DNA of 28,453 nt, from positions 1-28,453 of the IMG/VR virus record IMGVR_UViG_3300011116_000245; one strand, written 5' to 3'. This stretch comes from a virus. How positions within the stretch are numbered: position 1 is the stretch's first letter; each line of letters opens with the position of its first letter. Below, one piece after another: positions 7,814 through 7,885 of the stretch. The notes under the pieces were generated by a model that worked only from the letters and a program-made list of their open reading frames with translations, did not search any database and was not told the origin of the DNA. A program made the translations under genes and the position numbers.

Positions 7814-7885
7814 ATGTGGACAAAACCAACAGCAACTGAAATGCGCTTCGGCTTCGAAGTTACAATGTATGTAATGAATAAATAA
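7814..7885 (+). CDS. pqqA: PqqA, precursor peptide of pyrroloquinoline quinone
   Basis: A 23-residue peptide starting MWTKP and containing RFGFEVTMY, which is the PqqA signature. E15 and Y19, spaced E-V-T-M-Y, are the two residues that the radical SAM enzyme PqqE joins (with PqqD as chaperone) to build PQQ. Length and positions equal those recalled for Klebsiella PqqA (23 residues, E15/Y19). AAGGAG lies seven bases upstream, the best ribosome site in the window. It runs against the surrounding leftward genes and overlaps the end of 7860-8060 by 26 bases. No pqqB, C, D, E or F is present, so the host must supply maturation. The window shows sequence match only; activity is not shown. Confidence 0.9.
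   Translation: [23 protein letters not shown]

Follow-up and report, generated by a model that had tools for sequence, protein, structure and literature searches.

A phage-borne gene for the PQQ precursor peptide PqqA and its occurrence among phages of methylotrophs

The short ORF at 7814-7885 (+) of the window is a pqqA gene, encoding the 23-aa precursor peptide of PQQ, and it is carried by a phage. The window is the whole stretch of DNA analysed here, a 28.5-kb IMG/VR viral contig (28,453 nt). We have good confidence that phage pqqA acts as an auxiliary metabolic gene, feeding the consumed PQQ precursor to host PqqB-E and XoxF. It also appears probable that pqqA is a hallmark of methylotroph phages (at least five unrelated lineages), that host-type-matched PqqA is found in phages of apparent alphaproteobacterial PQQ makers as well, and that these genes represent a class of auxiliary gene that brings nothing but a gene-encoded cofactor precursor, consumed stoichiometrically, and relies on the host for every enzyme.

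Identity and setting of the gene

Translation of 7814-7885 (+) gives exactly 23 aa and a stop, with a G-x-E-x-x-x-Y core in which E15 and Y19 are the predicted cross-linked pair. An earlier note, made by reading the sequence, had called this ORF a phage-borne pqqA, and the profile search that it proposed bears this out. The peptide scores 40.7 bits against Pfam PF08042 (PqqA; cut-off 21.1, E 2.2e-10) and 39.3 bits against the NCBIfam equivalog TIGR02107 (PQQ_syn_pqqA; cut-off 20, E 4.1e-10), which is about twice the cut-off of both curated models, and none of 14 control genomes matched in the same six-frame PqqA search. A longer in-frame ORF (7751-7885) begins upstream, but we place the start at the ATG at 7814 because the ribosome binding site (RBS) and all relatives agree on it. 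This site, a Shine-Dalgarno sequence AAAGGAG read at 7800-7806 (+), lies 7 bases before the ATG, where the note had seen it, and AGGAG-type sites are found upstream of most phage and host copies of pqqA.

The best result of a promoter consensus scan upstream of pqqA was a weak and tentative sigma-70-like candidate, TATACA-16-TACAAT at 7764-7791 (+), which matches 9 of 12 consensus positions, no better than chance, and shows no conservation in the close relative L301. The candidate -10 hexamer is contained in a perfect palindrome, AATACAATTGTATT, at 7784-7797, immediately 5´ of the pqqA RBS; the palindrome is absent from L301. TANAAT is weakly enriched at -60 to -51 and at -40 to -31 in the phage copies.

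The gene is located on the strand opposite to that of the adjoining genes. To one side are an endolysin-like cell wall hydrolase (7090-7437 (-); Pfam Hydrolase_2, E 1e-12; PHROG 938) and a 96-aa ORF. To the other are a convergent 66-aa ORF with a hydrophobic C-terminus (7860-8060 (-)), which overlaps the last 26 bases of pqqA and has no family match in Pfam or PHROG, and the gene for an ERF-type ssDNA annealing protein (8063-8713 (-); Pfam ERF, E 1e-20; PHROG 2324). The terminase large subunit (16846-18399 (+)) has 84% amino acid identity to that of OM43 phage MEP301, and the window aligns with MEP301 DNA at 79.5% identity over three pieces that make up 16% of the query. Since the structural genes are MEP301-like, a Methylophilaceae methylotroph is the most probable host. 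Two further features of the contig were recorded. A small serine recombinase with a resolvase N-terminal domain only is encoded near pqqA (9776-10471 (-)), and MEP301 has one too. An ORF of 500 aa with hardly any family match (11506-13008 (-)) and an M28-type peptidase ORF (10551-11663 (-)) overlap at the start of the latter, an unusual pair in a contig of 28 kb.

The window peptide has the same residue as the Methylophilaceae host consensus at 22 of 23 positions, the sole change being A6T. At the DNA level, homology with the hosts is limited to the CDS and RBS (7787-7895), with at most 92% identity and a longest exact run of 26 bp, and the flanks are unrelated to those of every host copy examined. 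Host contamination was considered and rejected: phage genes flank pqqA, cultured isolates have it, and the viral loci are without pqqB-E. The confined homology also bears on the idea that phage pqqA, as the counterpart of a gene with several host copies, is an attachment or homology target for integration or recombination. The number of copies in hosts and the serine recombinase of the window would suit such a target, but a serine-integrase attachment site would be expected to have host identity reaching beyond the gene and an integrase, and neither was found. The recombinase is no full serine integrase, and the MEP301 authors made the same remark on a recombinase with the resolvase N-terminal domain only (PMC8024684). 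The unrelated T4-like Melnitz also has pqqA, and selection acts on the protein while synonymous sites are free; on these grounds we consider an attachment site extremely unlikely.

Occurrence among cultured and environmental phages

When 50,697 phage records were searched by tblastn with the peptide, matches came from Venkman, MEP301, P19250A, MEP401, MEP402, four Melnitz isolates and the uncultured podovirus ctXG6705. The gene is present in 9/9 Methylophilales/Methylophilaceae phage records found, which belong to six populations (Venkman, MEP301, MEP401, MEP402, P19250A and Melnitz), and in all completely sequenced cultured phages of these methylotrophs that were found. As the earlier note anticipated for so short a gene, it constitutes an annotation blind spot: no feature is annotated at the site in five cultured genomes (Venkman, MEP301, P19250A, MEP401 and MEP402), and an antisense "hypothetical protein" is called across it in Melnitz and ctXG6705. 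Two matches to "Acinetobacter phage MD-2021a" were set aside, the one examined, with ppk and a complete pqqBCDE, resembling a bacterial chromosome; record CAKLQF020000010.1 (L007), labelled Acinetobacter phage, contains ppk, pqqBCDE and a dipeptidase gene, and has this appearance of bacterial DNA deposited as phage.

Common proteins and DNA divide the isolates into five groups: window/MEP301, Venkman/ctXG6705, P19250A, MEP402 and Melnitz. Pairwise blastn, with Melnitz represented by an 8-kb piece, returned pqqA as an aligned segment in all 21 of 21 comparisons, and as the sole aligned segment for window-Venkman, window-P19250A, MEP301-P19250A, P19250A-MEP402 and P19250A-ctXG6705. With the whole Melnitz genome, pqqA was the sole aligned segment against the window, P19250A and ctXG6705, and was joined by one further common segment against MEP301 and MEP402; the Venkman pqqA match misses the E 1e-5 limit in this larger search. 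No PqqA was found in the SAR11 phage Hodr, though its terminase is 45% identical to that of the window. The association of pqqA with the host across phage lineages points to selection rather than common descent of the phages.

Related phages, to which the earlier note had looked for a check, have the gene at the same site in 20/20 nearest relatives (found via the ERF neighbour). An apparent absence from nine of these was an artefact of the search motif, all nine having a K4T form of the peptide, MWTTP... (L302, L305, L306, L310, L311, L315, L316, L318 and L319). These variants suggest that Lys4 can be dispensed with, in contrast to the fixed E/Y core. The close match to host copies could mean that pqqA is a passive passenger, taken up from a host not long ago and with little function. 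A passenger would, however, hardly be expected in five unrelated lineages and in every one of the nearest relatives, with its RBS kept and with low pN/pS despite highly diverged synonymous sites, and we hold this explanation to be highly improbable.

IMG/VR contigs were searched with degenerate DNA patterns for PqqA, which fix some residues. The first pattern matched at least 120 contigs, and all 120 matches listed are short PqqA-like ORFs, 10 of them with AAG at codon 4. A pattern with AAG at this codon gave at least 120 matches in its own right, and all 119 that were inspected are PqqA-like ORFs no longer than 32 aa. By extrapolation, the total is roughly more than 1,000 pqqA-bearing contigs, a figure that includes redundancy and leaves out K4T forms. 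Among the first 120 loci listed, 55 have at least two proteins in common with a reference lineage, 21 have one and 44 have none; the last of these argue for further lineages with pqqA, and more phage lineages probably carry it.

The hosts of environmental contigs were putatively assigned from peptide type and relatives. Alphaproteobacterial-type PqqA (...GLEINCYACAE...) is found on phage contigs, e.g. L033 (160-3434) and L392, and in L033 the gene has a terminase-like ORF on one side and a portal-like ORF on the other, both assigned by eye. This suggests that carriage of pqqA extends past Methylophilaceae phages. Enterobacterial-type PqqA (MWKKPAFIDMRLGLEVTLYISNR and similar) was observed on viral contigs L415, L433, L440, L441, L449, L472, L481, L489 and L496, with no pqqB-E nearby; these contigs are possibly prophages or phages of enterics.

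Selection on the peptide and its proposed role

Since the search patterns fix some residues, conservation was scored on free codons only. Codons 15 and 19 were free in the search, and E15 and Y19 are kept in 107/107 distinct nucleotide sequences, with Tyr19 encoded by TAT in 54 and by TAC in 53. The loss of either residue in related phages, which the earlier note regarded as grounds for giving up its reading, was looked for and not seen. At codons outside the first pattern's fixed set, pS is 0.64 and pN 0.17 (ratio 0.27); free residues between 10 and 18 have a pN/pS of 0.02-0.25, and residue 6 is unconstrained. This record bears directly on the possibility that the peptide is a decoy that occupies PqqD/PqqE, stops host PQQ synthesis and diverts metabolism. 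PqqA must bind PqqD/PqqE, so an abundant copy would compete with host PqqA. Yet in a decoy the reactive Glu and Tyr should be subject to drift or loss; neither was lost in any of the 107 sequences, and the peptide is otherwise almost identical to the productive host substrate. Because purifying selection acts strongly on the cross-linked residues and on the remainder of the core, we regard a decoy as very unlikely. We know of no regulatory or signalling role of PqqA, and the conservation fits that expected of a PqqE substrate, both of which make it unlikely that the peptide, or its cross-linked form, is made and processed mainly for such a role or another one apart from PQQ supply; in favour of another role, hosts keep many scattered copies with unclear individual roles, and expression differs greatly between the copies within one strain (PMC9851590).

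PqqA is present in 149/150 Methylophilaceae genomes, with a median of 4 copies and at least two copies in 141. Each molecule of PQQ takes its backbone from one PqqA, which is lost in the process; the enzymes can act again and again, so that a 72-bp pqqA alone would suffice for a phage. The phage gene has no linkage to pqqB-E, and the same is true of the extra copies in Methylophilaceae; unlinked pqqA copies are normal in hosts (PMC9851590), where the rest of the pqq genes usually occur once (PMC4109929). No PqqE scored over the cut-off in 47 pqqA-bearing viral records, each with exactly one pqqA, and tblastn with PqqB, C, D and E found nothing in 385 viral loci (279 + 106), with 16-20 of 120 host loci matching as a positive control. 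With no pqqB-E in the phage loci examined, host enzymes are the only evident route to PQQ, which agrees with the reliance on host PqqB-E proposed in the earlier note. A PQQ-dependent alcohol dehydrogenase was found in 0/48 pqqA-bearing viral records, so the phage would depend on the host enzyme here as well.

The auxiliary metabolic role that we favour would involve several steps. Intact PqqA would be made by the phage during infection, host PqqD/PqqE would cross-link Glu15 to Tyr19, and PQQ would be completed by host proteases, PqqB and PqqC. The PQQ made in this way could keep the XoxF-type methanol dehydrogenase of the host supplied during a long latent period. XoxF is the top OM43 transcript (PMC5120137) and MEP401/402 have a latent period of 17-20 h (PMC10580990), which makes a demand for PQQ through infection plausible. 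The gene has phage genes on both sides and homologues in 149/150 host genomes, as a carried host gene counted as an auxiliary metabolic gene should have. Some observations speak against the auxiliary role: there is no clear promoter upstream, pqqA runs against its neighbours, and hosts already have several copies, so that the gain from another is uncertain. On balance, we infer that the phage gene is expressed and its product processed, that PQQ is raised or maintained, and that the phage benefits.

Implications and comparison with known systems

OM43 and LD28 methylotrophs play an important part in methanol consumption in coastal seas and in lakes. The carriage of pqqA suggests that methylotroph phages keep host methanol metabolism running during infection. 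If it is true that such phages generally bring the PQQ precursor, infected cells may oxidise methanol until lysis, and a 72-bp gene would be relevant to models of carbon cycling. The gene is also a cheap marker by which phages of methylotrophs can be recognised in viromes, and its role could be tested in phage-host pairs already in culture.

Phage pqqA is not in itself a new kind of gene, as PqqA features in earlier virus reports. It was reported from the Lake Baikal methylotroph virus VP_266 in 2020 and proposed to raise PQQ for methanol dehydrogenase (PMC7678222), and pqqA is one of the virus-encoded genes listed in a 2026 reservoir paper (PMC13188868). The string "pqq" is absent from the MEP301 and Venkman papers, a text search of the MEP401/402 paper returned neither PQQ nor pyrroloquinoline, and in the Melnitz paper PQQ appears solely as an ingredient of the medium. 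A precursor-only gene in all methylotroph phages examined, across unrelated lineages, is a pattern that was not found in the literature searched, with most subscription journals and all bioRxiv preprints outside coverage.

Compared with Methylophilaceae PqqA (PF08042, TIGR02107, standalone extra copies), the window copy has the same length, the same Glu-x-x-x-Tyr motif, 22/23 residues in common, an RBS and the same lack of pqqBCDE linkage, but it is phage-borne, has the A6T change and has flanks unlike any host copy examined. With VP_266 it shares the proposal that a phage-encoded PqqA raises PQQ for methanol dehydrogenase. VP_266 is, however, a single T4-like population that also encodes methanol dehydrogenase, whereas the window is a small MEP301-like contig without this enzyme, and pqqA is here seen in all nine Methylophilales/Methylophilaceae phage records found. 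The psbA gene of cyanophages offers a broader parallel, in that the phage brings just that component of host energy metabolism which is consumed most rapidly; psbA replaces a damaged protein, whereas PqqA is a substrate that is converted to the cofactor.
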